Positions 15,901 to 36,633 of a stretch of DNA of 38,641 nt are shown here, one piece after another; the stretch's first letter is position 1, and each line of letters begins with the position of its first letter. Position numbers and translations under genes: made by a program. This DNA is from Verrucomicrobiota bacterium (lineage in GTDB: Bacteria > Verrucomicrobiota > Verrucomicrobiia > Verrucomicrobiales > Verrucomicrobiaceae). The notes beneath the pieces are model-generated. The model made no database searches, had not been told where the DNA came from, and saw only the letters and a list, made by a program, of their open reading frames with translations. The DNA is taken from the NCBI GenBank assembly GCA_026397715.1, contig JAPLUN010000653.1, positions 1 through 38,641 on the forward strand, read 5' to 3'.

Positions 15901-16073
15901 GTCTCTGGACTGGCGCCCGGCAGCGAGGCCGAGACGGAAATCGAAGGCATGTCCACCTGCGGCAAGGGCGAAACCGGCAGATTCGTGTAAGCCAGAACAC
16001 CCGACAACGCGATCGCCAGCGTGGCGAGCGTGGTCGCCACGGGACGGTGGATGAAGGTGTCGGTAAAATTCAT
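12957..16073 (-). CDS. mdtC: RND multidrug efflux transporter subunit MdtC
   Basis: A 1038-residue inner membrane RND transporter, typical in length. The N-terminus ([59 protein letters not shown]) tracks E. coli MdtC almost residue by residue. The proton relay is intact: [14 protein letters not shown] carries the Asp pair in TM4, and [14 protein letters not shown] carries the Lys in TM10. Two large periplasmic loops lie between TM1-2 and TM7-8. In E. coli MdtB and MdtC form a B2C heterotrimer, and the tandem arrangement here suggests the same. It overlaps mdtB upstream and the outer membrane factor gene downstream by four bases each. Confidence 0.95.
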
Positions 16074-19000: not shown

Positions 19001-19177
19001 CATCACCTCGGGTCCCGCCCCAGGATACAGGGTGACGACCTGGATCGTCGGATAGTCCACCTGCGGCAATGCCGCCACCGGCAACAGCCGGTAAGCCAGC
19101 CCGCCGACAAGCAGGACCGCCACCATCAGCAAAGTGGTTGCGACGGGGCGCTCGATGAAGATGCGGGAGGGATTCAT
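16070..19177 (-). CDS. mdtB: RND multidrug efflux transporter subunit MdtB
   Basis: A 1035-residue RND transporter. It starts [19 protein letters not shown] and continues with [33 protein letters not shown] and [11 protein letters not shown], close to E. coli MdtB. TM4 has [14 protein letters not shown] with the Asp pair, and TM10 has [14 protein letters not shown] with the Lys of the proton relay. It pumps lipophilic compounds (bile salts, novobiocin and similar in E. coli) from the periplasm, driven by protons. It lies 27 bp after the adaptor gene and overlaps mdtC by four bases. No two-component regulator such as BaeSR is in the window. Confidence 0.95.
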
Positions 19178-19204
19178 GCGTCAATCTTCATGCGATTTCA
19201 GCCA

Positions 19205-20464: not shown

Positions 20465-20570
20465 GTCAAAATCGGATCGCGCACGTGGACCACTATCCAA
20501 GCTTTATCGCACGCAAGATAACGAATCTGGCATGCGCTTAGAAGCAGTCCAGCGACAGAGCAGCGGAAGA

Positions 20571-20660: not shown

Positions 20661-21488
20661 TCAGCCCAGTTCTGAGACTGGTCTAGGCGTGAGGTCAGCA
20701 ACCCCTTTTGGAAACATTCGATCGCGAGCCGTGAGGATCTCAGGCTCATCGGTTGTGACGAGAACCACGTGCTCAAAATGCGCCGAGGGCCTGCGATCCG
20801 TGGTAACCACCGTCCATTTATCCTCAAGGATGCGCGTCTTCCCCGTTCCCATGTTGATCATGGGTTCGATGGCCAGCGTCATGCCAGCTTTGAGGCGAGG
20901 GCGGTCGCCTTTTTTTCCGTAGTTTGGCACCTGCGGCTCTTCATGAAGCTTTCTGCCGACGCCATGGCCGACGAACTCACGCACGACGGTGTAACCGTAT
21001 TGGGTGACGTGGTGCTCCACGCTGTGGCACAAATCGCCAAGCATCCAGCCGTCACGTGCGTATTTGACCGCATTAAGAAGTGATTCTTCCGTGGCTGCGA
21101 GAAGATGGAGTGTCTCCTTGGCCACATTACCAACAGGAACTGTCAATGCATTGTCCCCTACCCAGCCGTCGTAATAGACACCGACATCGATTTTGACGAT
21201 GTCGCCATCCTGAATCACGCGAGGACCACCGATGCCGTGAACGACCTCTTCGTTGATGGAGATGCAGATGGTGCCTGGAAACTGACGGTAACCGAGAAAG
21301 GCGCTTGTGGCACCGCACGCCTTTATTTCAGCGGCGGCAAAGCGATCCACTTCAGCGGTCGTCACCCCAGCATGAACCTGCGAGGCGGTTTTGATCAGCA
21401 CATCCCGTGCGACTTGGCAGGCCTTGCGGATGCCTTGTTGCTGCGCGCCGTGACGGATGGGGATGTTCCCCGATTTTACAAAAGCCAT
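20661..21488 (-). CDS. map: Methionine aminopeptidase, type I
   Basis: MetAP removes the initiator Met from nascent proteins. From the ATG at 21488 the protein has 275 residues, with His84 (VVHGI) and the metal ligands Asp101 (KIDVGVYYDG), Asp112 (GDNALTV), His175 (GHGVGRKLHEEP), Glu208 (AIEPM) and Glu239 (HFEHVV), each four residues beyond the E. coli positions. A C-terminal tail of about 15 residues is extra. A GTG at 21509 overlapping the secY stop (GTGA) would add seven residues and is possible. It is the last gene of the ribosomal run. Elsewhere infA, rpmJ and rpsM usually follow; here an efflux operon does. Confidence 0.95.
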   Translation of the reverse strand: MAFVKSGNIPIRHGAQQQGIRKACQVARDVLIKTASQVHAGVTTAEVDRFAAAEIKACGATSAFLGYRQFPGTICISINEEVVHGIGGPRVIQDGDIVKIDVGVYYDGWVGDNALTVPVGNVAKETLHLLAATEESLLNAVKYARDGWMLGDLCHSVEHHVTQYGYTVVREFVGHGVGRKLHEEPQVPNYGKKGDRPRLKAGMTLAIEPMINMGTGKTRILEDKWTVVTTDRRPSAHFEHVVLVTTDEPEILTARDRMFPKGVADLTPRPVSELG

Positions 21489-21505
21489 GACGCGCTGGAT
21501 GAAGC

Positions 21506-23008
21506 TCACTTAAGAGCAAGTTTGTACACGACGCCGATCAAGACCATGATGGCAAGAGCAACCCAAAGCCACACGACGGTCGTGGAGTCAACAGCGCGTG
21601 CGCCCTGCTGGATGCGATCCACACGACCACGGATACGGCCCTTCTTCAGGAACCCGTCATAGTGACTTTGCAGCAGATGCGTTTCGACCTGGCGCATGAC
21701 GTCAAGCACCACACCGACAAGGATCAGCAGGCTGGTGCCACCAAAGAACTGCGCAGCGGAGCTGGAAATCTTCATCGAACTGCTGACGACGCCCGGCATC
21801 ACATAAAGACCAGTCAGGAAGATGGCACCGGCAAAGGTGAGACGACTCATGGTGAAGTCGAGGAAGTCGGCAGTCGGCTTCCCTGGACGAATGCCCGGAA
21901 CGTAGCCACCGCTCTTTTTGAGGTCTTCCGAAATCTGCGTGGGCTGAAACATCGTAGCCACCCAGAAGTAACTGAAGAAGAAGATCAGCAGGGAGGAAGC
22001 GACATAATAAACCCAGCCACTGCTGATAAACAGCGCCATGCGCTGGATCCAGTTCACATCTTTGAAGAGCGAAGCCAGAATGGTGGATGGGAACAAGAGG
22101 ATGGCCTGGGCGAAGATGATCGGCATGACGCCAGAATAATTGATCTTAAGCGGCAGATACTGCGTCTGGCCGCCATAGACCTTGCGGCCTACAACGCGCT
22201 TGGCGTATGTGATTGCGATGCGTCGTGTCGCCTGGGTCAATGCAATGACACCAGCGATGACAAGAATCATGAATCCCATGAGCAGGACGAGGGTGAAGGC
22301 GCTGGCAGGGCTGGCCTTGATGCTGCCAACGAATGTCTGCCAGACCTGAATCAGAGCGCCTGGAAGATCGGAAACGATGTTCACACAAATTAGGATGGAG
22401 ACACCGTTGCCAATGCCGCGGTCCGTGATCTGCTCACCGAGCCACATCATGAGCATGGTGCCGGCAGTGATGGTGATGACGCTGGTGAATACGAAACCAG
22501 CTCCGTAGTTCGGAACGAGCGGCCTTCCGCCCAGTTTATCGATGGCATCTTGCAGCCCGGCCATGAGGTAGTTCTGGGCAGGATCGTGCAGAGACTGGGC
22601 CAGAAGTGTGGCCTGAAAGACGCAGAGCACAATGGTGGCAATACGGGTGTATTGCGTGATCTTCTGACGACCACCTTCTTCACGAGCCAGTTTGCTCAGA
22701 GGCGGCCAGACAGCCGTAAGGAGCTGCAGCATGATGCTGGCGCTGATGTAGGGCATGATACCCAGAGCGAAAATAGCGCAGTTTTGCAGCCCACCCCCGC
22801 TGAAAATATTGAGCAGCGCGGCGACCTGTGAGGCACCGGAGGCATTGTCACCCGCTTTGTTTTCAATCCAGGCATTCAACACAGCAGCATCAACACCCGG
22901 AAGTGTGATGGACGTGCCGATGCGGACGATGACAATCATCGCCAGGGTGAAAAGGATGCGCGAGCGAAGTTCGGGGACTTTGAAGCTGTTGGCGAAAGCA
23001 GAGATCAT
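21506..23008 (-). CDS. secY: Preprotein translocase subunit SecY
   Basis: SecY is the core channel of the Sec translocon. The 500-residue protein has about ten membrane helices and the family motifs: IMPYISASIMLQLL, LAREEGGRQKITQYTR near the first cytoplasmic loop, GNGVSILI, RRIAITYAKRVVGRKVYGGQ, LPLKINYSGVMPIIFAQA, and DLKKSGGYVPGIRPGKPT, which binds the ribosome/SecA side. It is longer than the E. coli protein (443), mostly through the extended loop around residues 55-75 and an extended loop near LGGRPLVPNYGAG. It lies between rplO, after a 94-bp structured gap, and map. Confidence 0.96.
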   Translation of the reverse strand: MISAFANSFKVPELRSRILFTLAMIVIVRIGTSITLPGVDAAVLNAWIENKAGDNASGASQVAALLNIFSGGGLQNCAIFALGIMPYISASIMLQLLTAVWPPLSKLAREEGGRQKITQYTRIATIVLCVFQATLLAQSLHDPAQNYLMAGLQDAIDKLGGRPLVPNYGAGFVFTSVITITAGTMLMMWLGEQITDRGIGNGVSILICVNIVSDLPGALIQVWQTFVGSIKASPASAFTLVLLMGFMILVIAGVIALTQATRRIAITYAKRVVGRKVYGGQTQYLPLKINYSGVMPIIFAQAILLFPSTILASLFKDVNWIQRMALFISSGWVYYVASSLLIFFFSYFWVATMFQPTQISEDLKKSGGYVPGIRPGKPTADFLDFTMSRLTFAGAIFLTGLYVMPGVVSSSMKISSSAAQFFGGTSLLILVGVVLDVMRQVETHLLQSHYDGFLKKGRIRGRVDRIQQGARAVDSTTVVWLWVALAIMVLIGVVYKLALK

Positions 23009-23029
23009 GAGAGAGAGGCTCTAAGCGAA

Positions 23030-23077
23030 GATGGGCCTGCTTCCTGACAGCGTTCGCTGCGCGGAGACCGGCCCATC
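23030..23077 (-). promoter_or_regulatory. Long hairpin in the rplO-secY gap
   Basis: Read on the minus strand GATGGGCC and GGCCCATC form a perfect 8-bp outer stem (23077-23070 with 23037-23030), enclosing a second perfect stem CAGCG-AA-CGCTG. The gap is 94 bp, the largest in the ribosomal block. The position, about 20 bases before the secY ATG, suggests control of secY translation, RNA processing or attenuation. No T-tract follows, so it is not a simple terminator. Confidence 0.5.
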
Positions 23078-23102
23078 AAAGAGGTTGGTTGGGTCAGAAA
23101 AA

Positions 23103-23546
23103 TCAGGCGGCGATGGAACCGCCGGCCTTCTCAATCTTTTCACGGGCCGTAGCGCTGACTTTCGCGCCTTGGATGGTGAGCTTGAGAGCAAGATCACCAG
23201 TGCCGAGAATCTTGATGAAGTCGCAGTTGCGGCTCACCAGACCTGATTCACGCAGTGCGGCTTCATTGATGACAGCACCATCCTGGAAGGCTTCGTTAAG
23301 TTCACCAACGTTCACGACTTCGAAGACGTCTTTGAACTGCTTGTTGTTAAAGCCTTTCTTTGGCAGACGGCGATGCATTGGCATTTGACCACCTTCAAAG
23401 CCGGGGCGAATGCCGCGACCAGCGCGAGCCATCTGACCTTTGTTGCCTTTACCGGAGGTTTTACCGTGACCGGAGCTTTCGCCACAGCCGATGCGCTTGC
23501 GGCGCGTCTTGGCACCTGGGCGGGGTTTGACGTCTTGGAGTTGCAT
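23103..23546 (-). CDS. rplO: 50S ribosomal protein L15
   Basis: A 147-residue L15, close to the E. coli length of 144. The N-terminus has the Gly/Arg-rich GCGESSGHGKTSGKGNKGQ signature, followed by RPGFEGGQMPMHRRLPKKGF, which lies along 23S rRNA, and the globular end KILGTGDLALKLTIQGAKVS. It assembles late in the large subunit. It follows rpsE by 30 bp, where most bacteria have rpmD (L30), and precedes secY. Confidence 0.97.
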   Translation of the reverse strand: MQLQDVKPRPGAKTRRKRIGCGESSGHGKTSGKGNKGQMARAGRGIRPGFEGGQMPMHRRLPKKGFNNKQFKDVFEVVNVGELNEAFQDGAVINEAALRESGLVSRNCDFIKILGTGDLALKLTIQGAKVSATAREKIEKAGGSIAA

Positions 23547-23576
23547 GGAAATTTAAAAGAGGAAAAAAAGATTCAA

Positions 23577-24176
23577 TCAGAGGGCCTTGCGCTCTTTGAT
23601 TTCCTTGCCGCGAGCGCGGAGGATTTCATCGGCAGGGCGCAGAGCGGTGAGCGCAGCAAGAGTAGCGCGGACGACGTTGGCGTGGTTGCTGGAACCCAGC
23701 GACTTGCCGATCACGTCTTTGACGCCTGCAGCTTCAAGGACGGCGCGGGCGCCGCCACCAGCAATGATGCCGGTACCTGCCGTGGCAGGCTTGAGGAGGA
23801 TGTGTCCGCCACCATGGGAGCCCACCACTTCATGAGGGATGGTGCTGTCCTTGAGGCAGATGGAGAACATGTTCTTGCGGGAAGCTTCGGTCGCCTTCTT
23901 GATGGCGTCGGAGACTTCGTTGGCCTTGCCAAAACCGCAGCCCACTTTGCCCTTGGCATCGCCGGAAACGACGAGTGCGCTGAAGCTGAAGCGACGACCA
24001 CCTTTGACTACCTTGGCGCATCGGTTGATGTGAACGACTTTTTCGACACCATCCGTCTCACGCGGCGCACGATCATCACGACCACGGAAACCACCGTAGG
24101 AGGGAGAAGGAGCTGCTACAGGTGCCTCCGCAGGTGCGGCGGCTGGGGGATCGATAACTACTGTTTCTTCGGCCAT
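23577..24176 (-). CDS. rpsE: 30S ribosomal protein S5
   Basis: S5 stabilises the decoding centre. The 199-residue protein has the double-stranded RNA-binding-like N-domain ([41 protein letters not shown]) and the C-terminal domain ([40 protein letters not shown]). It is about 30 residues longer than E. coli S5 because of an Ala/Pro-rich N-terminal extension ([17 protein letters not shown]). It lies 19 bp after rplR. Confidence 0.96.
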
Positions 24177-24195
24177 AAATTTACGCGAGGCGGTT

Positions 24196-24552
24196 TTAGA
24201 ATTTCAGACCCTTTTCACGGGCGGCATCTGCAAGGGCTTTCACCTTGCCGTGATAAATGAAACCGGCACGGTCAAAGACCACTTCGGTGATGTTTTTTGC
24301 CATGGCACGCTCAGCGAGGAGAGCACCGACTTTCGTGGCGTTCTCGACGTTGGCCTTGCCAGCGCCGTAGCCTTTTTCCTTGGTGGAAGCCGAAACGATC
24401 GTCTTGCCGGCAGCGTCGTCGATGACCTGGGCGTAAACGTTCGTGTTCGAGAAGTAAACTGCGAGGCGGGGACGCTCGGCGGTGCCGCTGAGTTTGCGGC
24501 GGATGCGCTTGTGGATACGAGCGCGGATATCTTTGCGATTTGTAAGAGCCAT
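24196..24552 (-). CDS. rplR: 50S ribosomal protein L18
   Basis: L18 binds 5S rRNA together with L5. The 118-residue protein matches the family length and has [40 protein letters not shown], a [21 protein letters not shown] helix and [20 protein letters not shown] at the end. Nothing is unusual. It lies 18 bp after rplF. Confidence 0.97.
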
Positions 24553-24570
24553 GATGAGTATCTCCGGAAA

Positions 24571-25110
24571 TTATTTGACGGATTTGCCGGCTTTACGGCG
24601 GATGTGTTCGCCCACATAACGCACGCCCTTGGCCTTATAAGGCTCTGGCGGGTAGTAAGCACGAATGTCAGCAGCAAGCTGGCCGACAACCTGTTTGTCG
24701 ATGCCTTCGATGGCGATCTTGGTGTTTTCGGTGACGGTCACCTTCACGCCCGTTGGAATGGGGTGCAGACGGTCATGGGACTGGCCGAGCTGAAGATCAA
24801 TGTTCGAACCTTTGACCGCTGCACGGAAACCCACGCCGTGGATTTCAAGATTGCGGGTGTAGCCCTGGCTGACGCCGATGAGCATGTTCGAGATCAGACG
24901 CTGAGTGGTGCCGTGAAGGGCGCGCACTTTGCGGTCTTCGGAATCGCGGGTGACGTTGATGGTCTTGGCGTCCGAATTGACTTTAACACCGAGCGGAAGA
25001 GTCCAGCCGAGTTCGCCCTTCGGGCCTTTGACCTGCACAGAGCGGTCGTCACCAACTTTAATGGTGACCTTGTCTGGAATGGAGATGATTTGTTTACCTA
25101 CGCGTGACAT
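24571..25110 (-). CDS. rplF: 50S ribosomal protein L6
   Basis: L6 sits near the factor-binding site of the large subunit. The 179-residue protein starts MSRVGKQIISIPDKVTI, has KGPKGELGWTLP, the N-domain GTTQRLISNMLIGVSQGYTR, and the C-terminal signature YYPPEPYKAKGVRYVGEHI-RRKAGK. Length and motifs are standard. It lies 21 bp after rpsH. Confidence 0.97.
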   Translation of the reverse strand: MSRVGKQIISIPDKVTIKVGDDRSVQVKGPKGELGWTLPLGVKVNSDAKTINVTRDSEDRKVRALHGTTQRLISNMLIGVSQGYTRNLEIHGVGFRAAVKGSNIDLQLGQSHDRLHPIPTGVKVTVTENTKIAIEGIDKQVVGQLAADIRAYYPPEPYKAKGVRYVGEHIRRKAGKSVK

Positions 25111-25131
25111 GATGGTTGTGACGGTTGGGGG

Positions 25132-25521
25132 TTACCAGACAGTGGCGAGGAGTTCACCGCCCACTTTGGCCTTGCGAGCCTTGGCACCAGTCATGATGCC
25201 GCGTGGTGTGGAAAGGATGGAGATGCCCAGGCCGCCGAGGACGCGAGGAATCTCGGTGCTGCCAACGTACTTGCGAAGACCAGGCTTGCTGACGCGGTCG
25301 ATCTTGCGGATGACGGCGGTCTTGTCCTGATACTTGAGCTTGAGCTTAAGGCGGGGATGGGTGGCGTTGGTGTCCACTTCGTAGCCCCAGATGTAGCCTT
25401 CTTCCTGCAAAATGCGGGAGAGTTCGGCCTTCAACTTGGAGAAGGGAATGAGCACCTGCTCCTGCTGTGCTGAGCAGGCGTTGCGGATGCGGGTAAGAAA
25501 ATCTGCGATCGGGTCGGTCAT
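25132..25521 (-). CDS. rpsH: 30S ribosomal protein S8
   Basis: S8 binds helix 21 of 16S rRNA and in E. coli also represses the spc operon at the rplE start. The 129-residue protein starts MTDPIADFLTRIRNA, has the middle KLKYQDKTAVIRKIDRVSKP, and ends with GLGISILSTPRGIMTGAKAR, the RNA-binding C-terminal motif. It follows rplE by 27 bp. The S14 gene that normally lies between them is missing. Confidence 0.97.
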   Translation of the reverse strand: MTDPIADFLTRIRNACSAQQEQVLIPFSKLKAELSRILQEEGYIWGYEVDTNATHPRLKLKLKYQDKTAVIRKIDRVSKPGLRKYVGSTEIPRVLGGLGISILSTPRGIMTGAKARKAKVGGELLATVW

Positions 25522-25548
25522 GACGCTGAGGGTGTCCGGGTGTTGGGG

Positions 25549-26133
25549 TTATGCGGCGGCTTCAGTGCCATCTTCCTTCTTCGGCTGAGCGACGCGGGTG
25601 CGGAATGGCATGCCCAGGGTGCGCAGCATTTCACGCGCATGGTCATCATTGTTCGTGCTGGTCACGAAGGTGATGTCGAAGCCAAGCTGACGCTTGATCT
25701 TATCGAGCTCGATTTCTGGGAAGATTGACTGTTCTGCAACGCCGAGGGTGTAGTTACCACGACCGTCAAAGGCACGGGGGGCGACACCACGGAAGTCACG
25801 AATACGAGGGATGGCGGTGCGCACGAGACGCATCATGAAGTCATACATCTTGCCACCACGAAGGGTGACCTTGACGCCGACGTTTTCACCTTCACGCAGT
25901 TTGAAGTTGGCGATAGCCTTCTTGCTTTTGGTGATGACTGGCTTCTGGCCGGTGATGAGGGTCACTTCATTCACGGCGTCTTCGATCGCCTGCTTACGCT
26001 CTGCCTGACTGCCGATGGCGCAGTTCACGACGATTTTTTTGAGCTGAGGGACCTGGTGGATGTTAGCAAGACCGAGCTGGGTTTGCAACTCGGTGCGTTT
26101 TTCTTTATATAGGGTCTGTAGGATGTGTTCCAT
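25549..26133 (-). CDS. rplE: 50S ribosomal protein L5
   Basis: L5 binds 5S rRNA and contacts the P-site tRNA. The 194-residue protein has the family segments QVPQLKKIVVNCAIG, LITGQKPVITKSKKAIANFK, REGENVGVKVTLRG, FRGVAPRAFDGRGNYTLGV, and EIELDKIKRQLGFDITFVT. It is about 15 residues longer than E. coli L5 because of a charged Ala-rich tail. It is preceded by a 91-bp gap with predicted structure. Confidence 0.97.
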   Translation of the reverse strand: MEHILQTLYKEKRTELQTQLGLANIHQVPQLKKIVVNCAIGSQAERKQAIEDAVNEVTLITGQKPVITKSKKAIANFKLREGENVGVKVTLRGGKMYDFMMRLVRTAIPRIRDFRGVAPRAFDGRGNYTLGVAEQSIFPEIELDKIKRQLGFDITFVTSTNNDDHAREMLRTLGMPFRTRVAQPKKEDGTEAAA

Positions 26134-26224
26134 GATTCAGTTTGGGCTGTGCCGCCTTTCCCTCGATGATCGCACCGTGCGGGAGCGACGATGACGAGGG
26201 GGGAGGCAAATGGGGGTCGTTGCT
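26134..26224 (-). promoter_or_regulatory. Structured rplX-rplE gap, possible S8 control site
   Basis: This 91-bp gap is far larger than most spacers in the run. On the minus strand CCCTCG (26200-26195) pairs with CGAGGG (26165-26160), with an internal loop, a second short stem TCGC/GCGA (26188-26185 with 26173-26170), and an inner CGCA-CGG-TGCG option. In E. coli S8 represses the spc operon by binding mRNA around the rplE start, so this is a candidate equivalent. The fold is read by eye. Confidence 0.4.
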
Positions 26225-26509
26225 TTAGGCCTTAGCCTTCTTCTTCGCAACTTTCTTTTTCTTCTCTTTCACAGGCGCGTCAACGCGCTTGACATTCGAG
26301 ATATGGATCGGGGCTTCTTGCTCTTGAAAGCCGCCTGCCTGATTCTGCTGGGTTGGCTTGATCGCTTTCTTGATCATGCGCACGCCTTCGACGAGCACGC
26401 GGTTTTTAGCGGTCTGCACTGCCAGGACAACTCCCTGAGCGCCTTTGGCGGCTCCGGAAATGACGACGACATTGTCGCCTTTTTTAACGTGGGTCTTGGT
26501 ACGGCTCAT
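26225..26509 (-). CDS. rplX: 50S ribosomal protein L24
   Basis: L24 is an assembly-initiator protein of the large subunit. The 94-residue protein has a KOW motif near the N-terminus ([20 protein letters not shown]), then [18 protein letters not shown] and [10 protein letters not shown]. It is somewhat shorter than E. coli L24 (104) and ends in a Lys-rich tail ([14 protein letters not shown]). It follows rplN by five bases. Confidence 0.96.
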
Positions 26510-26514
26510 TGGAA

Positions 26515-26883
26515 TTACAGCACTTCAGGTGCGAGGGAAACGATCTTCATGAAGTTTTTGTCGCGCAGTTCACGGGCCACTGGGCCAAAGATGCGGGTGC
26601 CACGCGGGTTGTTGTCTTTGTCGATGATGACCATGGCATTGCGGTCAAAGCGCAGGATCGAACCATCGACGCGGCGGATTGGGTGCGAGGTGCGCACGAT
26701 CACAGCGCGAACGACTTCACCTTTTTTCACGGCGGCGGTCGGGGTCGACTCACGCACGTGGGCGGTGATGATGTCGCCAACGTAGGCGAAGCGGGTGTTT
26801 TTCTTGCCGAGCACGCCGATCATCGTGGCCAGTCGGGCACCGGTGTTATCAGCCACCGGGATTGAGGACTCCATTTGCAACAT
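26515..26883 (-). CDS. rplN: 50S ribosomal protein L14
   Basis: A 122-residue L14 of standard length. It starts [19 protein letters not shown] and has the [20 protein letters not shown] core and [20 protein letters not shown], followed by [20 protein letters not shown], all highly conserved. It contacts L19 and helix 14 of 16S rRNA across the subunit interface. It lies 42 bp after rpsQ. Confidence 0.98.
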
Positions 26884-26925
26884 AAACTGTTTCTCCTGGT
26901 CAGGTTAGGGGGTTCAAAAATACGA

Positions 26926-27210
26926 CTAGTGCTTCTGCACTTCGATCAGTTCCCAGCGCTTCAGCTTGGAAAGTGGGCGGGTTTCGGCGATGAGCACCTT
27001 GTCACCTTCTTTGGCCACGCTGTTTTCGTCGTGGGCATAGAACTTGGAGGTTTTGCGAACAATCTTCTTGAAGATTGGATGCGGAACGCGGCGTTCGACT
27101 TTGACGACGATGGTCTTCGTCATCTTGTCAGACACCACGGTGCCGACGCGCGTCTTGCGCACGGCTGGTTTTTCGGTGGCTGCAGGGGCTGCTGCGGTGG
27201 GTTCGCTCAT
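26926..27210 (-). CDS. rpsQ: 30S ribosomal protein S17
   Basis: S17 is a primary 16S rRNA-binding protein with an OB fold. The 94-residue protein has [40 protein letters not shown] and [20 protein letters not shown]. It carries an extra N-terminal segment of about 12 residues rich in Ala and Pro ([15 protein letters not shown]) compared with E. coli. It lies 34 bp after rpmC. Confidence 0.97.
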
Positions 27211-27244
27211 GATATTAGAAATGCTTCAGGGGGTGATGGCCGGC

Positions 27245-27463
27245 TCAGGCGGCCTTCTTGGCAGCCGCAGCGCGGGTGCGCTCGGTGATGATGGTTTCGA
27301 TCCGGGCGATCTCGCGACGGATATGGGTCAGACGGGCTGGATTTTCGAGCTGACCGCCACCTGCGCTCTGCTGCACACGCAGATTCAGCGCTTCCTGCTT
27401 CAGTTCGCGACGGCGTGCGGAGAGTTCTTCCACAGTCGATTCACGGAGTTCTTTGATCTTCAT
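27245..27463 (-). CDS. rpmC: 50S ribosomal protein L29
   Basis: A 72-residue helical protein near the tunnel exit. It starts MKIKELRESTVEELSARRRE and has LKQEALNLRVQQSAGGGQLE, then ENPARLTHIRREIARIETII, the classic L29 pattern. The short Ala/Lys tail (TRAAAAKKAA) makes it about nine residues longer than E. coli L29. It lies 17 bp after rplP. Confidence 0.96.
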   Translation of the reverse strand: MKIKELRESTVEELSARRRELKQEALNLRVQQSAGGGQLENPARLTHIRREIARIETIITERTRAAAAKKAA

Positions 27464-27480
27464 AATTCAGTTCGCGTTGG

Positions 27481-27903
27481 TTATTTGTGCAGGCTTTCGC
27501 GGCTGACGAAGCGGCAGCGGAGGCCCAGCTTCGTAGCGGCAAGACGGCAGGCTTCACGAGCGGTGGCTTCGTTCACGCCGGAGATTTCAAAGAGCATGTG
27601 GCCTGGCAGGACGACTGCAACCCAGAATTCTGGGGCGCCTTTACCCTTACCCATTCGGACTTCCGGTGGACGCTGGGTGACTGGCTTGTGAGGGAAAATA
27701 CGGCAGAAAACCTTTCCTTTACGCTTGAGGTAGCGGGTGATGGCCACACGGCAGGCTTCGATGTGGATGTTTTTGATCCAGCCGCGCTCAAGGGTCTGGA
27801 GACCGAAGTCACCAAAGTCCAGTTTGTTGCCGCTGGTGGCGTTGCCGCCGCGGTTGCCGCGCTGCGATTTGCGATATTTTACTCTGCTTGGAAGAAGGGC
27901 CAT
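27481..27903 (-). CDS. rplP: 50S ribosomal protein L16
   Basis: L16 helps position the A-site tRNA. The 140-residue protein has [74 protein letters not shown] and [20 protein letters not shown]. Length is standard (E. coli 136). It lies 46 bp after rpsC. Confidence 0.97.
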
Positions 27904-27949
27904 ACGTCTAGGTCCGGTGGAAATGGTTTAGTTCGAAAGAAGGGGCAAA

Positions 27950-28741
27950 TTAAGCCTGGGCTGCTGGAGCGGGCGCTGGAGCTGGGGCACCATAGCCACC
28001 ACCACCACCTGGACGGCCACGGTCACCACCGCGAGGACCAGGAGCACCTGGACGGCGATCTCCACGGTCATCTCTGCGTGGGCGACGGTCGCCGGAAGGA
28101 CGGGACACGCCTTCAGGAGCATTGCCACGGTTCATCCAGCACTTGACGCCAATGATTCCGTAAACAGTGCGGGCTTCAGCGAAGCCATAATCGATCGGGA
28201 TACGCAGGGTCTGAAGAGGCACCTTGCCCTGGCGATACCACTCAGCGCGGGCGATGTCAGCACCACCGAGACGGCCGGCGCAGCGGAGACGAATGCCGTC
28301 AGCACCCATGTCCATGGCGGTCTGCACGGAGCGCTTCATGGCGCGGCGGAAGGAAATACGGCGCTCAAGCTGAACGGCAACGGCTTCTGCGACGAGCTGG
28401 GCGTCGAGTTCTGGCTGCTTGATTTCGAAGATGTCGATCTTGACCTGCTTGCCACCGCACATTTCAGAGACCTTCTGGCTCATGACGTCGATTTCCTGAC
28501 CTTTACGGCCAATGACAAGACCCGGGCGGGCGGTGTGAAGAGTCACGCGGACCTGGTTCCAAGCGCGCTCGATCACGATCTTGGAGATGGCGGCCTGCAT
28601 GAGCTTTTCCTTGAGGTAAGCACGGATGGCAAGGTCGCTGTGGAGCGAGTCTGCGTATTCTTTTTCAGGTGCGTACCACTTGGAGCGCCAGTCTTTGGTG
28701 ACTGCAAGGCGGAAGCCGATCGGATTTACTTTCTGTCCCAT
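27950..28741 (-). CDS. rpsC: 30S ribosomal protein S3 with Gly/Pro/Arg-rich tail
   Basis: S3 guards the mRNA entry and has helicase activity. The 263-residue protein starts MGQKVNPIGFRLAVTKDWRS, has a KH domain (PGLVIGRKGQEIDVM) and the C-domain (RRISFRRAMKRSVQTAMDMG, GIRLRCAGRLGGADIARAEW). After about residue 205 comes a low-complexity tail rich in Gly, Arg, Asp, Pro and Ala (DRRPRRDDRGDRRPGAPGPR and on to APAPAPAPAAQA) not found in E. coli S3. It lies 33 bp after rplV. Confidence 0.97.
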   Translation of the reverse strand: MGQKVNPIGFRLAVTKDWRSKWYAPEKEYADSLHSDLAIRAYLKEKLMQAAISKIVIERAWNQVRVTLHTARPGLVIGRKGQEIDVMSQKVSEMCGGKQVKIDIFEIKQPELDAQLVAEAVAVQLERRISFRRAMKRSVQTAMDMGADGIRLRCAGRLGGADIARAEWYRQGKVPLQTLRIPIDYGFAEARTVYGIIGVKCWMNRGNAPEGVSRPSGDRRPRRDDRGDRRPGAPGPRGGDRGRPGGGGGYGAPAPAPAPAAQA

Positions 28742-28774
28742 AAAGTGAAGAGGTGCGGTTGGGGGGCGTTGCGG

Positions 28775-29212
28775 TTATTCAGAAGCTTTCTTGGCCTTGG
28801 CTGCCTTCTTGAGGGCAGGAGCATTGCGGCGGGCGGATTTAGGAGCCTTCTTCTCGCCTTCAGCCTTGGCTTCTTCAGCCTTAGGTGCGCCGATGATCAC
28901 GGTGATGTGGGTCATGCGCTTCTTGATCGGAGCGGCTGAACCACGGGCACGTGGCATGATGCGGCTCAGGACCGGGCCGGGAGTGGCAATGGCGGACTGA
29001 ACGATGAATTCAGAGGCATCCTGCTCGTGGTTGTTCTCAGCGTTCGCGATGGCGGAACGAAGAGTCTTGCCAACAAGGAAGGCGGCTTTCTTTGGAGTGA
29101 AGTCGAGAACGCTCAGCGCCTGGGAGACGGGCATGCCGGTGATGGCACGTGTGACCTGACGGGCTTTCTGCGAGGAGATCCTGGCGTATTTGAGGACGGA
29201 ACGGACGGACAT
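28775..29212 (-). CDS. rplV: 50S ribosomal protein L22 with basic tail
   Basis: L22 lines the peptide exit tunnel. The 145-residue protein has LKYARISSQKARQVTRAITG, QALSVLDFTPKKAAFLVGKT, NAENNHEQDASEFIVQSAIA and PRARGSAAPIKKRMTHITVI, the tunnel loop and core. It is about 35 residues longer than E. coli L22 because of a Lys/Ala/Glu-rich C-terminus. The preceding gene is not rpsS, as usual, but an exported coiled-coil protein. Confidence 0.97.
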   Translation of the reverse strand: MSVRSVLKYARISSQKARQVTRAITGMPVSQALSVLDFTPKKAAFLVGKTLRSAIANAENNHEQDASEFIVQSAIATPGPVLSRIMPRARGSAAPIKKRMTHITVIIGAPKAEEAKAEGEKKAPKSARRNAPALKKAAKAKKASE

Positions 29213-29238
29213 AAAGCGAGGGGGGGTTCTTGACTTCG

Positions 29239-30018
29239 TTAGAGAGATTTGTTGAGATCGACGCGACCCCGGTCACCGACGCGGACGGGATCATTGGCAG
29301 TGGCCAGTTCCTGGACTACGGCACCACAAACAGAGTTGCGGACTTCAGTAACAAGGACTTTCGCGATGGGCTTGTCTTCGCGGTAAATTTCAAAGGGCAT
29401 TCCCGGCTTCACCCCATCTTTAGCACCGATGGAGAGAACGGCGATGCCGAGTTCACTCTTCAGGCTGACGACGCGGGCGTTTTGCAGGTCACCCACAGCT
29501 TGACCGTTTTGACCACCACCGGCTTTGACAAGCGCGGCATCGGCAGTGGTAATGGCTTTGTTCAGACGGTCGGCGGCGGCAGGATCAGCGTTTTGAGCGC
29601 TTTTCATCAGGCCCATGCCCGATTCAGCGAGTTCAATCAGAGCGCTGGCGAGTTCGTCGCGCTGCTCTTTCATGATGCGCAGATCGCTGAGGGCAGCGAG
29701 CAGGCGCTCTTGAGTTTGATCCTTGGAGTTTTCGAGTGCTCCAACGCCAAGACCTTCGAGGAGACCGCGCAGTTTTTCGTAGCGGTCTTTCAGTTCGTTG
29801 GTTTCGGCATTGGCGGCAGCAGCGCTCTGAGCCAGCGCGTCGTTCTTATCCTTGGCCGCAAGGATTTGAGCATCCTGGGCTTGGATCTTCGCGGCGGCGA
29901 CTTGGAGCGAAATGTGCAGTTCCTGGTTTTCGAGCTTGTCGTCCGCACGCACACCTGACACACCCACTGCAAGAAGCAGTGAGAAAGTGATGCAGGTGAT
30001 GGAAGTGCGGAGTGACAT
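29239..30018 (-). CDS. Exported coiled-coil protein of unknown function inserted in the ribosomal operon
   Basis: A 259-residue protein I do not recognise. Residues 1-25 form a signal peptide (ITFSLLLAVGVSGVRA, cleavage before DDK). Residues about 27-125 are rich in Ala, Leu, Glu and Lys with heptad character, a likely coiled coil. Residues 126-180 are helical, ending in a Gly/Gln-rich hinge (KAGGGQNGQAVGD). Residues 181-259 look like a small beta-rich domain (VVSLKSELGIAVLSIGAKDG, VKPGMPFEIYREDKPIAKVL, DPVRVGDRG), reminiscent of the C-terminal SH3-like domain of FlgT and similar envelope proteins. The gene lies 22 bp after rpsS and 26 bp before rplV, both normal spacers for the block, so it must be co-transcribed with ribosomal genes. 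No Shine-Dalgarno is clear. The expected location is periplasm or envelope, and the function is unknown. Confidence 0.88.
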   Translation of the reverse strand: MSLRTSITCITFSLLLAVGVSGVRADDKLENQELHISLQVAAAKIQAQDAQILAAKDKNDALAQSAAAANAETNELKDRYEKLRGLLEGLGVGALENSKDQTQERLLAALSDLRIMKEQRDELASALIELAESGMGLMKSAQNADPAAADRLNKAITTADAALVKAGGGQNGQAVGDLQNARVVSLKSELGIAVLSIGAKDGVKPGMPFEIYREDKPIAKVLVTEVRNSVCGAVVQELATANDPVRVGDRGRVDLNKSL

Positions 30019-30040
30019 GAAAATGCTCGATGCTCAGGAA

Positions 30041-30319
30041 TTACTTGGCGGCCTTGACGGTGACGGCACCGTGAGACTTGAACAGACGGGTCAGGGAGAA
30101 CTCGCCGAGGCGGTGACCAACCATGTTTTCAGTCACGTAGACAGAGACGAAGTCCTTGCCGTTGTGAACCAAGAACGTGTGGCCAACGAGGTCAGGAGTG
30201 ACCATGGAGGAACGGGCCCAAGTCTTGATGGGGCGTTTCTGCTTGGCGTCGTTGAGCTTGTCCACCTTGTCGAGGAGGGCTTGCTGAACGAAAGGACCTT
30301 TTTTGAGGGAGCGTGCCAT
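30041..30319 (-). CDS. rpsS: 30S ribosomal protein S19
   Basis: A 92-residue S19 of standard length. It starts [20 protein letters not shown] and has [20 protein letters not shown], then [20 protein letters not shown] and [16 protein letters not shown]. It forms a complex with S13 in the 30S head. It lies 24 bp after rplB. The usual next gene, rplV, is displaced by the inserted exported-protein gene. Confidence 0.98.
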
Positions 30320-30343
30320 GTGAGTGCGTGATTAAGGAATGGA

Positions 30344-31183
30344 TTACTTCTTGGCGTGACGGCTCTGGATGATGAGCTTGTTCGTCGCCTTCTTCTTGTT
30401 GCGGGTCTTCTCACCCTTCGCGTGGCCCCATGGGCTGAGCAGGTGCTGACGACCACCACCGGACTTGGAACGACCTTCACCACCACCGTTAGGATGGTCG
30501 ATCGGGTTCATACACATACCGCGGACGGTTGGGCGTGTTCCCTGCCAGCGGGTGCGGCCCGCCTTGGCACTGACGACGTTCATGTGTTCGACGTTGCCGA
30601 CCTGGCCAATCGTGGCGTAGCAGACAGAGAGGATCTTGCGGATTTCTCCGGAAGGCATGCGCACCAGGGCGAAGTCACCTTCACGGTTGGAAAGCACAGC
30701 GGCCTGACCTGCGGCACGGGCGACGACGCCGCCTTTGCCTGGGGAGAGTTCGATGTTGTGGATCGAAGTACCGAGAGGGATTTTGCTCAGAGGAAGAGCA
30801 TTGCCCAGTTCAGGGGCTGCTTTTTCACCAGCCATCACCGAGGCACCCACTGTGAGGGCGTTTGGAGCAAGGATGTAAGCACGCTGGCCGTCCTTGTATT
30901 CGATGAGGGCGATGCGAGCGGAGCGATTCGGATCGTATTCGATGCCGACCACTTTGGCTGCTTCATCACGGCGGGACCGCTTGAAGTCGATGAGACGGTA
31001 ACGCTTGTCGTGACCACCACCGATGTGACGGCAGGTGATACGGCCAGTGTTGTTACGGCCACCGGATTTACGGAGAGCCACGGTAAGGCTTTTCTCCGGA
31101 GAATGCTTTGTGATCTCCTCGAAGGAGTTCCACTCTTTATAGCGATTGGTGGGCGTGGTTGGCTTGAATGTTTTCAGCGCCAT
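30344..31183 (-). CDS. rplB: 50S ribosomal protein L2
   Basis: L2 supports the peptidyl transferase centre and subunit joining. The 279-residue protein starts [20 protein letters not shown] and has [20 protein letters not shown], the [20 protein letters not shown] strand region and the C-terminal loop [14 protein letters not shown]. The functionally studied His of the DHP motif is kept. It lies 36 bp after rplW. Length and sequence are ordinary. Confidence 0.98.
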
Positions 31184-31219
31184 GACGGTAGGATAAGTTA
31201 AAGGGTTGCGGGCCTGGGG

Positions 31220-31504
31220 TTACGCGAGGTCGAACTTTTCGCCAGCCTTGAGGCGGACGATCGCTTTCTTCCAGTGATTGGTGCGTCCGTAATCGGCGCG
31301 GCGCTCACGACGGGCCTTGCCGTCATAGTTCGCAGTGCGGACACCGGTGACTTTTTTGCCAAACAGTTTTTCGATGGCCTGTTTGATGTCGATCTTGGTG
31401 GCTTCGACGTCCACGGAGAACACGTACTCGTTGTTCTGTTCGCCCAGCAGCGTGGCTTTTTCGCTGAGACGGATGTTTTTGATGACTTTATGAAGGTCTT
31501 TCAT
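31220..31504 (-). CDS. rplW: 50S ribosomal protein L23
   Basis: L23 sits at the tunnel exit and docks trigger factor and SRP. The 94-residue protein has VIKNIRLSEKATLLGEQNNE, YVFSVDVEATKIDIKQAIEK, LFGKKVTGVRTANYDGKARR and a Lys-rich end. The start codon lies two bases after the rplD stop, with an AGAGGA about ten bases upstream, so translation is coupled to L4. Confidence 0.97.
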   Translation of the reverse strand: MKDLHKVIKNIRLSEKATLLGEQNNEYVFSVDVEATKIDIKQAIEKLFGKKVTGVRTANYDGKARRERRADYGRTNHWKKAIVRLKAGEKFDLA

Positions 31505-31506
31505 GA

Positions 31507-32118
31507 TCAGGCGGTCCTCTTGGCAAGGGTTTCAAGGGCGTCACCGGTCACCACAACGCTGCGGTAGCGAAGGAGGTGTTCGGCATTCACTTCGTCAGCG
31601 GAGATAAGCTGAACGTTCTGGACATTGCGGCCGGCGCGGAAGGTGAGTTCATCAAAGCCTTTGCCGATGAGCAGCACATTTTTAGCGGTGGTCAGGCCAT
31701 TGACGGCAGCGATGAAGCTCTTCGTCTTGCCATCAGCCACGGAAAAGCTGCCGGTGGTGAGCACTTCACCATCAAGGATCCGGGCGGTCAAAGCGGCGCG
31801 CAGAGCGAGCTTCTTGGTTCCCTTGGTGGTTTTCTTTGCCCAAATCGTTGTGTTGCGTGGGCCGAAGACGACACCGCCACCACTCCAGATGGGGGAACGC
31901 TTGCTGCCCATACGAGCATTGCCTGTTCCCTTCTGGTTCCAGAGTTTCTTGCCGGAGCCGGAAACTTCAGAACGGTTTTTGGTGTGGGCGTTGCCCTGAC
32001 GACGGTTGGCGCGATAGGCCACCAGCGTGTCGTTGAGAGCCTGAGAGCCTTTATAGCCCTCGGTCAGTTGAATGTTAGCCGCCTTGGCGGCGTCGGCTGA
32101 GAGAATGGTAGCGGACAT
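31507..32118 (-). CDS. rplD: 50S ribosomal protein L4
   Basis: L4 lines the tunnel with L22 and in E. coli represses the S10 operon. The 203-residue protein has ALNDTLVAYRANRRQGNAHT, KNRSEVSGSGKKLWNQKGTG, NARMGSKRSPIWSGGGVVFG (tunnel loop) and KKTTKGTKKLALRAALTARI. Length matches E. coli (201). It lies 17 bp after rplC. Confidence 0.97.
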   Translation of the reverse strand: MSATILSADAAKAANIQLTEGYKGSQALNDTLVAYRANRRQGNAHTKNRSEVSGSGKKLWNQKGTGNARMGSKRSPIWSGGGVVFGPRNTTIWAKKTTKGTKKLALRAALTARILDGEVLTTGSFSVADGKTKSFIAAVNGLTTAKNVLLIGKGFDELTFRAGRNVQNVQLISADEVNAEHLLRYRSVVVTGDALETLAKRTA

Positions 32119-32135
32119 GGTTCAGTTCCTCGTTA

Positions 32136-32789
32136 TTACTTCTTCACGACGGCTTTTTTGCCGGGGCGCACCACAACGATGCTACCTTTGTTGCCGGGGA
32201 GTGCGCCTTTGATGAGCAGGATGCCTTCTTCAGGACGGCTTTGCACGACGACCAGATTCTGGGTGGTGCAGCGGGTGGTGCCGTCATGGCCAGGCATCTT
32301 CTGGTTTTTCCAGACGAGACCGGGAGTGAGACGGCAACCGATGGAACCAGGACGACGATGCATCATGTGACCATGCGTGGCGGGCTGACCAGCGAAGTTC
32401 CAGCGTTTCACAACGCCTTGGAAACCTTTGCCCTTGGTGTTGCCGATGACGTCAACCACCTGGCCGTTGCTGAAGATGCTCGCGTCGAGCTTGGCATCAG
32501 CTGCTGGCAGTTGGTCGTCGCCAGTGAGGCGGAATTCCTTGACGATGCGCTTGGCAGTCGTGCAACCGTGCTTCTTGAAGTGGCCCAGCAGTGGTTTGGT
32601 CACGCGGGAATCCTTCAACTGGTCGCCATAGCCGACCTGCACTGCGCTGTACTTGTCTTTGCCATCGCTGCGCTTCACCTGAAGAATGGTGTTGCCGCTG
32701 ACGTCAACCACTGTGACCGAGATTGCGTCGCCTTTGGCGTCGTAAACTTTGGTCATACCGAGTTTTTTACCGATCAATCCGAGACTCAT
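32136..32789 (-). CDS. rplC: 50S ribosomal protein L3
   Basis: L3 starts 50S assembly and reaches toward the peptidyl transferase centre. The 217-residue protein starts MSLGLIGKKLGMTKVYDAKG and has the loop IGNTKGKGFQGVVKRWNFAG, then THGHMMHRRPGSIGCRLTPG. Its Shine-Dalgarno is strong: AGGAGG lies eight bases before the ATG. It lies 37 bp after rpsJ. Confidence 0.98.
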   Translation of the reverse strand: MSLGLIGKKLGMTKVYDAKGDAISVTVVDVSGNTILQVKRSDGKDKYSAVQVGYGDQLKDSRVTKPLLGHFKKHGCTTAKRIVKEFRLTGDDQLPAADAKLDASIFSNGQVVDVIGNTKGKGFQGVVKRWNFAGQPATHGHMMHRRPGSIGCRLTPGLVWKNQKMPGHDGTTRCTTQNLVVVQSRPEEGILLIKGALPGNKGSIVVVRPGKKAVVKK

Positions 32790-32826
32790 GAGTGTGTCCT
32801 CCTGTTATTAAAGTGATGAGATCGAG

Positions 32827-33135
32827 TTAGATCTTGATGGTGATGTCCACGCCGGATGGGAGATTGAGCTTCTTGAGCTCGTCCACGGTGCGGGAGGTTG
32901 GGTCAACGATGTCCAGCAGACGCTTGTGTGTGCGGATTTCGAACTGGTCCATCGACTTCTTATCGACGTGCGGGGAACGGTTCACGGTGAACTTCTCGAT
33001 GCGGGTCGGCAGCGGGATGGGGCCTGCAACACGTGCGCCGGTGCGCTTCGCGGTTTCGACGATGTCAGCGGTGCTCTTGTCGAGCACGCGGTAGTCATAG
33101 GCGCGGAGGCGGATTCTGATGCGTTGATTTGTCAT
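32827..33135 (-). CDS. rpsJ: 30S ribosomal protein S10
   Basis: S10 (also NusE in antitermination) has 102 residues here, with [60 protein letters not shown] and [20 protein letters not shown]. An AAGGA lies eight bases before the ATG. It follows fusA by 41 bp; tuf, which lies here in many bacteria, is absent, so the str and S10 operons are fused. Confidence 0.98.
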
Positions 33136-33176
33136 GACGATGGTCCTTGGGATACGGGGTTCTGTGCGCGTGCGCT

Positions 33177-35324
33177 TTACTTGGAGCCTCCACGCTGCTC
33201 GACGATCTGCTCAACAATATTATGCGGAACCTGCTCGAAGTGAGAAGGCTGCATGGAATAGCTGGCGCGTCCGGAGGAAAGAGTGCGGATGGCGGTGGAA
33301 TAACCAAACATTTCAGCCAGAGGAACTTCAGCGCGCAGGATGGCGGTGGTGCCGCGGCTGTCCATGCCCTGAATCTTGCCACGGCGGCGGTTCAAGTCAC
33401 CCATGATGTCGCCCTGATAATCTTCTGGTGTGGAAGCTTCCACGGCCATGATCGGTTCAAGGAGAATGCACTTGGCTTTCTTGAGAGCGTCCTTGACGGC
33501 GAAGATACCGGCCATCTTGAATGCGTTTTCGTTGGAGTCCACTTCGTGGCTGGAGCCATCGACAAGTTCGATGTGCATGTCGATCACTGGATAACCAGCG
33601 ATGATGCCGTTGAGAGCAGCTTCCACGCAACCCGCCTTGGCTGGGTTGATGAATTCCTTTGGAATCGTTCCGCCGACCACTTTGTTTTCGACGACGATGC
33701 CCGAACCCTTTTCACCAGGGCGAACCTTGATGACGACGTGTCCGTATTGACCACGACCACCAGACTGCTTGACCAGCTTGCCTTCGCCATCGGCTGGGAT
33801 CGTAAGCGTTTCGCGGTAGGCGATCTGCGGCTTGCCAGTGGTGGTTTCCACTTTGTGCTCGCGCTTGAGACGGTCGCAGAGAATTTCGAGGTGGAGTTCG
33901 CCCATGCCGGCGATGATGACCTGGCCAGTCTCTTCGTCTGTCTTGACGAAGAATGTTGGATCTTCTTCGGAAAGGCGCTGGAGGGCGTTGCCCATTTTTT
34001 CCTGGTCGCCCTTCGTCTTTGGCTCGACGGCCATCGAGATCACGGGTTCTGGGAATGTTGGTGGCTCGAGAAGGATGTCGAGATCTTCATCACAGAAGGT
34101 GTCGCCAGTGCGAACGTCCTTTACACCCACGAGGGCGGCGATGTCACCCGAATAACAGGTGTCAATATCCTTATGAACGCTGGCCTGAATCTGAATAAGA
34201 CGGCCCACGCGCTCAGACTTGCGGGTGCGGGGATTGTAGATTGTGTCCCCCTTGGAAACCTTGCCGGAATACACACGGAAGAACACGAGACGGCCAAACT
34301 TGTCGGACCAGAGCTTGAAGCCCAGGGCGCAGAACTTGCCGGCGTCATCAGGATTGGCTTCGACCTTGGTGTCAGGATCGTCAACGAGCTGGCCGGTCTG
34401 TGGCTCAATGTCAAGCGGACCTGGGAGGTAGTCGATGACGGCGTCGATCAGATACTGCACGCCTTTGTTCTTGAAGGCGGAACCACCGGCCATCGGGATG
34501 ATCTTGTTGGCGATCACCGTGCGGCGAAGGGCTTCCTTGACTTCCTTGATCGTGATTGGCAGTTCCTCGAGGAACTTCATGCCCAGTTCTTCGTCCTGGT
34601 TGCAAATTTCCGCCACAAGACCGTCGTAAGCTTCCTTGGCCTTCGCGATTTCCGCGCCCTCAAGGTCACGCACCTTGTAGGAAGAGCCAAACTTTTCGTC
34701 GTCGTTGTAGATGATCGCCTTCTGGTTCACCACGTCGATCTGACCGATGAGGTCTTCTTCTGCACCGATTGGAATGAGGATCGGCCAGGCATTGGCTCCG
34801 AGCTTCTTGCGAACGTCGTTAACCACGTTGTCGAAGTTGGCACCGGTGCGGTCCATCTTGTTCACAAAAGCGATACGAGGAACGCGATACTTTTCAGCCT
34901 GACGATAAACGGTTTCAGACTGAGGCTGCACACCTGCCACGCCGCAAAGCACGAAGATGGCGCCATCGAGCACTCGGAGGGAACGTTCAACTTCAGCTGT
35001 GAAGTCCACGTGTCCGGGGGTGTCGATGATGTTGACGCGAATGTCTTCCATCTCACGCAGCTTGAAGATGCCTTCTTCCTTGAGCTGCTTCCAGCGTGCC
35101 GTCACAGCAGCGGAGGTGATGGTGATACCACGCTCTTTTTCCTGTTCCATCCAGTCTGTGGTCGCAGCTCCGTCATGCACTTCGCCGATCTTGTGGATCA
35201 TGCCAGTGTAGAACAGAATACGCTCAGTCAGGGTAGTCTTACCCGCGTCAATGTGGGCACAGATCCCGATGTTGCGGGTGCGCTCAAGTGGGTATTCGCG
35301 GTTGGGGGAATTGGGGTTCGACAT
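33177..35324 (-). CDS. fusA: Elongation factor G
   Basis: EF-G is the GTPase that drives ribosomal translocation. The 715-residue protein has the G1 loop [20 protein letters not shown], the switch region [11 protein letters not shown]3 [17 protein letters not shown]4 [11 protein letters not shown], and later domains ([58 protein letters not shown]). Motifs and length fit the ribosomal-operon type of EF-G. It lies 45 bp after rpsG and 41 bp before rpsJ. Confidence 0.98.
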
Positions 35325-35369
35325 GGGGTCGGAAAAACGAAAAGTGGACGGAAAAGTAAAGTGAAACGA

Positions 35370-35843
35370 TTAGAAGCGGAAGTGGGCGAAGGCGCGGTTG
35401 GCCTGTGCCTGCTTGTGAACGTCGTCGCGCTTGCGGACGGCATTCCCCTGCCCCTGTGCGGCATCCTTCAGCTCATTGGCAAGAGCGCGGTGCATTGCCT
35501 GACCTTTACGGCCACGGGCAAAACCAACGATCCAGCGCATGGCCAGGGATTCCTGACGACGAGGAGAAACTTCAAGGGGAACCTGGTAGGTGGCACCACC
35601 GACGCGGCGGGCTTTGACTTCCACGCGTGGCTTGGTGTTCTCAATGGCGCGATTGAAGAGCTCAAGAGGATCGACGCTGTCGGTCTTGTCGTTAAGCGCC
35701 TCGATGGCGGAATAAACGATGCGCTCAGCGAGCGACTTCTTCCCATCAAGCATGATGTTGCTGATGAGTGTTGCAACGAGTTCGCTGTCGTAGCGGCTGT
35801 CCTTGCGAACCTCTTTGTTATAAACGCGTTTTCTGCGGGCCAT
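35370..35843 (-). CDS. rpsG: 30S ribosomal protein S7
   Basis: S7 starts assembly of the 30S head and in E. coli represses the str operon. The 157-residue protein starts MARRKRVYNKEVRKDSRYDS and has LISNIMLDGKKSLAERIVYS, VKARRVGGATYQVPLEVSPR and RQESLAMRWIVGFARGRKG, then the RNA-binding end. It lies 34 bp after rpsL. Length is standard. Confidence 0.98.
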   Translation of the reverse strand: MARRKRVYNKEVRKDSRYDSELVATLISNIMLDGKKSLAERIVYSAIEALNDKTDSVDPLELFNRAIENTKPRVEVKARRVGGATYQVPLEVSPRRQESLAMRWIVGFARGRKGQAMHRALANELKDAAQGQGNAVRKRDDVHKQAQANRAFAHFRF

Positions 35844-35877
35844 GGCGTGTGGAAATTAGGAGTGAAATCAGCGGAAA

Positions 35878-36282
35878 TTATTTCTTCTTCGCGGCAGCGG
35901 CGGCAGCACCTGGCTTTGGACGCTTTGCACCGTACTTGGAACGGCCACGACGACGGGCATCAACACCAAGGCAGTCAAGGGTGCCGCGGACGATGTGATA
36001 ACGCACACCGGGCAAATCCTTCACACGACCACCGCGAACCAGCACGATGCTGTGTTCCTGAAGATTGTGACCTTCACCACCGATGTAGGCGATGACTTCG
36101 TAGCCGTTGGTCAGACGCACCTTGGCCACCTTACGCAAAGCGGAGTTGGGCTTTTTAGGTGTGCGAGTCATCACCTGGAGGCAGACGCCACGACGCTGCG
36201 GGCACTTTGCAAGCGCAGGAGACTTCGACTTTACCGCTTTATCTTTGCGGCCGTGTCTGACGAGTTGATTGATGGTGGGCAT
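35878..36282 (-). CDS. rpsL: 30S ribosomal protein S12
   Basis: S12 sits at the decoding centre. From the family start [20 protein letters not shown] (ATG at 36282) the protein has 134 residues. [20 protein letters not shown] contains Lys43 and [13 protein letters not shown] contains Lys88, both typical of streptomycin-sensitive S12, and Asp89, the residue modified by RimO in other species. The C-terminus adds an Ala/Lys tail ([11 protein letters not shown]-like) to the E. coli length of 124. The frame is open upstream to 36480, but no family member extends there. No Shine-Dalgarno precedes the ATG. It is the first gene of the ribosomal super-operon. Confidence 0.97.
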
Positions 36283-36633
36283 GGTGTGAAAGAGCTGTGA
36301 ACCTTTGGCTTTCTTCGTAGCCAGTTTCGGGGGACAGCGCGCCATGCTCACAATGAGCATACGCAGACTTTTCCGGTTCTGGTTCCGATAATGAAGAGCC
36401 TCCGTGGAGGATCTTGATTTGCCGGTCTCGTTGAAGAGGCCGGGCCTTGGGGAGCGCGCATTCTGGCGAGTCCCCAGCATGCCGCAAGCTCTATTTCACA
36501 CTTTTTGAAATAATTATTCACATTGCCTCTCACTTGTTCACAAATCTGCGCAGACATTATAGCTGCTCTTTAAGCTCAATTCACCGTTATCCGTGCATTT
36601 GCGTCACCGCCACTTTACGCCACACTGACTGCC
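36283..36633. promoter_or_regulatory. Divergent region with long structured str leader
   Basis: A 351-bp non-coding stretch between rpsL (minus) and a secreted-protein gene (plus). On the minus strand a perfect TATAAT (36561-36556) could be the -10 of the str promoter, although the -35 is weak; it would give a leader of about 270 bases. The leader holds a 7-bp hairpin with the 3-base loop TTG (36360-36344), a short CCTC-CACG-GAGG hairpin, and a GC-rich stem region near 36422-36443. The leader could carry autoregulation by a ribosomal protein. The plus gene has no clear promoter; TTGTTC near 36534 with TTATAG 17 bases later is weak. Confidence 0.45.

Follow-up and report, generated by a model that had tools for sequence, protein, structure and literature searches.

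The window, i.e. the whole stretch of 38,641 nucleotides that was analysed, carries on its reverse strand an rpsL-rpsG-fusA-S10-spc cluster (20661–36480) in which all genes run in one direction, in the order rpsL, rpsG, fusA, rpsJ, rplC, rplD, rplW, rplB, rpsS, gene X, rplV, rpsC, rplP, rpmC, rpsQ, rplN, rplX, rplE, rpsH, rplF, rplR, rpsE, rplO and, last, secY (21506–23008, reverse strand) and map (20661–21509, reverse strand). Most of these names come from the translations and the gene order, with Pfam matches for S19, L22, S12, SecY and the M24 peptidase (map). Gene X (29239–30018, reverse strand) starts with ATG, encodes 259 amino acids of a predicted exported coiled-coil and beta-barrel protein, and is the sole gene of the cluster not annotated for translation, export or processing. 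Its 5' neighbour is rpsS (30041–30319, reverse strand; Pfam S19, 1.9e-35), at a gap of 22 bp, and its 3' neighbour is rplV (28775–29212, reverse strand; Pfam L22, 6.3e-34), at a gap of 26 bp; the open reading frame coordinates and the Pfam identities of the neighbours thus confirm the initial annotation in that a 259-codon gene splits this pair at these spacings. The rpsS-rplV pair is one of the best-conserved neighbour pairs in bacteria, and in the E. coli K-12 control the two genes are separated by 14 bp with no gene in between. Neither a promoter-like site nor a coding-strand terminator-like site was found in the rpsS-X and X-rplV junctions. As read from the translations of window positions 23103–26133, the cluster lacks rpsN between rplE and rpsH, and rpmD between rpsE and rplO. 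A tripartite RND efflux set (11554–20500), formed by a membrane-fusion protein, an AcrB-type pump and an outer-membrane channel, is the next downstream of secY-map and runs in their direction.

Protein X could be divided into three parts. Residues 1–25 (29944–30018, reverse strand) read by eye as a signal peptide, with cleavage between MSLRTSITCITFSLLLAVGVSGVRA and DDK, and correspond to a low-confidence, unstructured N-terminus in the structural model. Residues 26–166 (29521–29943, reverse strand) form an alanine-rich helical or coiled-coil region, with 21% Ala and a heptad bias of hydrophobic residues, for which AlphaFold2 (alignment A1) predicts helices at 26–96, 99–139 and 146–166. The C-terminal beta-barrel domain, residues 180–255 (29254–29481, reverse strand), is the conserved core of the X family, and its strands are placed at 181–253. 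The mean pLDDT of the full-length model is 85.6 and that of the barrel about 96, but the pTM is only 0.42, so that the placing of the stalk relative to the barrel is uncertain; a model of the barrel alone (alignment A3, 74 sequences) reaches a pLDDT of 90 and a pTM of 0.80. The signal peptide, coiled coil and beta-rich end that had been noticed in the sequence are therefore borne out by the N-terminal pattern, as judged by eye, and by the predicted helices and strands.

No Pfam or NCBIfam family matches X above cut-off, and a sequence search of the PDB gave no significant match. Among ribosomal protein families no Pfam match was found either, and the N-terminus is of the export type. The alanine-zipper lipoproteins of the Lpp/OprI type (NF040598) score 15.4 bits, against an NCBIfam cut-off of 43, and the X of the window has no lipobox cysteine at its cleavage site. 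An export-type N-terminus persists among the relatives of X as judged by eye, but its kind varies: it may be a signal peptide, a lipobox (loci L158 and L159) or a transmembrane-like anchor (L152, L153 and L155). In the Foldseek search with the barrel model, FlgT ranks first (TM 0.70 by query, E 4.5e-4), followed by MreC, which is the next envelope protein, and by the N-terminal barrels of rotary ATPases. Because the latter also match, the barrel must be regarded as a common fold, and since a helical stalk with a small barrel is a common architecture, function is not readable from the fold. The window genome encodes other proteins with a similar barrel, namely two tandem reading frames (L150, G000:C554:1500-4500), one of which combines a transmembrane segment, a coiled coil and a barrel, and a third at L151 (G000:C131:1000-3500). 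Tandem frames at L170 resemble those of L150 and suggest that a second barrel family is common to the phylum.

Within the order, homologues of X were found in 224 of 240 genomes, and in 173 of the 177 good ones. The junction was read in a further 69 genomes of the order, of which 29 belong to the window's genus and 40 come from six families, some loci having one side cut by a contig end. This showed X or a divergent reading frame at the rpsS-rplV junction in every case, and direct adjacency of rpsS and rplV in none. Among named genome records, searched with the narrower alignment A2, the rpsS-X-rplV arrangement is complete in 39 of 41, the other two being cut by contig ends; these records show the window's own genus to be Prosthecobacter-like, with proteins up to 98% identical, and Akkermansia muciniphila has the same arrangement. 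An assembly artefact or a recent insertion is ruled out, as dozens of independent assemblies, single-contig ones included, have the gene at this site. The dN/dS of X against congeners is about 0.03–0.13 where dS is below about 1.3, and X is therefore under purifying selection; with its constant site in the order, this places it far from a chance reading frame. In two incomplete assemblies X looks broken, in one case into two frames (L017, G033:C50) and in the other by a single TAA (G030:C292:2429-3190), by possible sequencing error or decay.

Beyond the order, the A1 profile finds relatives in 235 of 286 genomes of the class and 161 of 241 of the phylum, some of the weak matches being other genes. 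At 58 class and phylum loci picked by profile match, the matching reading frame lies between rpsS and rplV in 52, directly 5' of rplV without rpsS nearby in four, and at unrelated places in two. Several families of the class have a short form of X, with frames of about 120–185 amino acids that comprise the signal and the barrel only (L139–L149). A less biased survey measured, in 130 genomes of the phylum, how far the S19 match lies from the L22 match. The pair encloses an insert of 250 bp or more in 46 (five of which, in G295, G263, G328, G339 and G545, were not matched to X), leaves a gap of 100–249 bp in 20, and one below 100 bp in 18; in the other 46, rpsS and rplV were far apart or on different contigs. 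The separation occurs within one contig in five of these 46 split genomes, over 37 kb to about 1.3 Mb, and in the remaining ones a contig break is possible case by case. The suggested scan of the junction across Verrucomicrobiota has thus returned an inserted frame in many families, and a short form or none in some.

The split genomes also show which neighbour X follows. X lies directly 5' of rplV in 29 of the 46 (18 by survey coordinates and 11 by reading of the locus), and no X lies there in 14, 43 of the 46 having been examined; because so many keep X at rplV, and because five rpsS loci from split genomes carry no X, it is rplV that X follows. A split of the S10 operon between rpsS and rplV is itself unusual, and is apparent in families f64, f69, f70, f74, f75 and f80, and also in f82, f86, f88, f89 and f90. 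Of 27 genomes in which the site has no X, 15 are devoid of any barrel-domain match and the others have barrel matches of different size at other loci, with no clear case of a relocated orthologue. Several families have lost X or lack it, so that it cannot be a universal requirement. Distances between X barrels correlate with ribosomal-protein distances at a Spearman coefficient of 0.71 (permutation p 0.005, 199 permutations), similar to the 0.76 obtained for rpsS against its neighbours, which fits one ancient entry followed by vertical descent and several losses. The proposal that X is a settled member of the operon is strongly supported by its invariance across the order, by its retention beside rplV in many split operons, and by junctions free of promoter-like and coding-strand terminator-like sites.

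The level at which X is made is a different matter. Ranked among 101 background genes drawn from 20 contig stretches, its codon adaptation reaches the 64th percentile, against the 81st to 100th for the ribosomal genes and fusA; the initial annotation had called the protein abundant, for which this result gives no support, and because of its lower codon adaptation X probably yields less protein than the adjacent genes. A role that depends on high dose is weakened accordingly. In A. muciniphila, RNA-seq showed the ribosomal cluster Amuc_0294–0308 to be up as a complete cluster (PMC11480725), and Amuc_0296–0297, 0301 and 0304 have been named as ribosomal genes (PMC13335675). To judge by its position in Akkermansia genomes, X likely lies inside the interval Amuc_0294–0308, and the rise of the cluster is compatible with the coupling of X to growth rate that we infer. 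In its main text, a paper on the outer-membrane proteome of Akkermansia gives no Amuc_029–032 tags.

Taken together, these data are best explained if X is an exported, scaffold-like protein of the envelope that is co-transcribed with ribosomal proteins and needed in proportion to growth, a reading to which a probability of about one half is given. The protein would be periplasmic, or apparently membrane-anchored or lipidated in some lineages, and would consist of an alpha-helical coiled-coil stalk bearing a barrel of the FlgT-C/MreC type. Early in the history of Verrucomicrobiota its gene would have been inserted into the S10 operon, right at the 5' side of rplV, to be inherited vertically with that operon from then on, with several losses. 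The gaps of 22 and 26 bp suggest that X is transcribed in the S10 message; if so, its transcription should track that of the ribosomal proteins and, through them, growth rate, whereas its translation is probably the weaker. X would most likely act as a factor in envelope assembly or envelope integrity for which the need is proportional to growth. A farther-reaching and distinctly tentative version, which we consider rather unlikely, is that a transcriptional or translational yoke was established when the S10 operon of an ancestor captured X and was kept through the break-up of the operon, in which case X would be a largely clade-wide device of Verrucomicrobiota that yokes a periplasmic barrel protein to rplV and ties envelope growth to ribosome production.

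The main rival takes X for a historical hitchhiker, an envelope gene that was inserted once and whose place is kept by the cost of breaking an essential operon, its co-expression with ribosomal proteins having no regulatory meaning. Vertical inheritance alone would account for the conserved place, and both the ordinary codon adaptation and the repeated loss of X in some families agree with this; yet the same losses show that the operon tolerates deletion of X, and most lineages nevertheless keep it there. The 29 split genomes in which X has stayed beside rplV after the separation from rpsS, and the failure to find a clear relocated orthologue in the 27 genomes that lack X there, also speak against it, and this explanation is considered possible but on the whole unlikely. 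X might instead assist the Sec translocon or periplasmic folding as a partner, being kept in one message with secY so that more ribosomes bring more export capacity. The cluster does extend on one strand to secY-map, and the predicted export of X, with its apparently anchored or lipidated variants, would suit such a partner, but X tracks rplV, which lies some 6 kb upstream of secY, and neither a known partner of Sec nor a periplasmic chaperone is among the listed fold matches, which leaves this proposal improbable.

A published description of X or of an interrupted rpsS-rplV pair was not found in the main texts of the open-licence literature, and neither PMC3444138 nor PMC2474590, two papers on signatures of the PVC group, has a matching mention of X. 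The lasting interruption of the pair by a gene for a predicted exported protein, often kept beside rplV through splits of the operon, is a strong genomic hint that X matters and that the amount made may be coupled to the production of ribosomes. X is a possible clade marker and offers a concrete, conserved target in the gut bacterium A. muciniphila, which makes the matching of ribosome synthesis with envelope growth directly testable.

Among known systems, SecM, MifM and VemP are those with which a regulatory function in cis would be compared. Like them, X encodes a predicted exported product a short way upstream of genes for the secretion or translation machinery, and its translation and export could in principle report the state of export and so tune the downstream genes from rplV to secY; the product of rplV, L22, is a tunnel protein, and the place of X immediately 5' of rplV is often kept after the operon has split. 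Unlike them, X has a conserved folded domain and no identified arrest motif: its best-conserved part is the barrel, in which near-invariant Gly, Arg and Asp look structural, and the residues after it vary freely, with no conserved C-terminal motif in alignment A1. A secretion sensor of this type is very improbable.

FlgT is a protein of the H/T ring of the Vibrio flagellum, with a C-terminal domain described by PF16538. The barrel of X has its best PDB match there (3w1e/8z5n, at the TM given above), and both proteins are exported (X by prediction), but the N and M domains of FlgT are absent from X by Pfam, a coiled coil takes their place, and X is encoded in a ribosomal operon. PF16538 matches weakly in eight of 42 X members at E up to 0.1 (best 0.012), and not in the X of the window. 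FlgH is missing from the window genome and from 14 Akkermansia genomes, with a match in 13 of 135 genomes of the phylum, and a flagellar role in these bacteria is therefore very unlikely; what stands of the FlgT-like tail that had been proposed for an envelope protein is thus the fold, and FlgT identity is rejected. MreC, as described in PMC8804602, has a coiled coil followed by a six-stranded barrel and is periplasmic. X shares the coiled coil and barrel, with fold matches to 2j5u, 6zm0 and 7eft, but has one barrel where MreC has two, and lies in the S10 operon instead of the mreBCD neighbourhood. There is no PF04085 match for X, the window genome has a separate MreC gene (G000:C114), and all 14 Akkermansia genomes keep X without a detectable MreC (PF04085), on which grounds the identification of X as MreC was rejected. 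Nearly all sampled Verrucomicrobiota other than Akkermansia have a PF04085 match, and the window genome holds a second MreC-family match (G000:C497:27347-27793) inside a frame of 1482 codons, an unusual size for MreC. In spite of the barrel fold and the weak PF16538 matches, a MreC-like or FlgT-like part in the elongasome or the flagellum is, on these data, the least credible of the explanations.

Non-ribosomal genes in S10-spc clusters are a known kind, with secY and map as widespread members. X resembles these two as an export or processing gene embedded among genes for ribosomal proteins; it differs in that it sits inside the S10 part and, as far as tested, is found only in Verrucomicrobiota, so that X and its behaviour are, as far as can be told, new.
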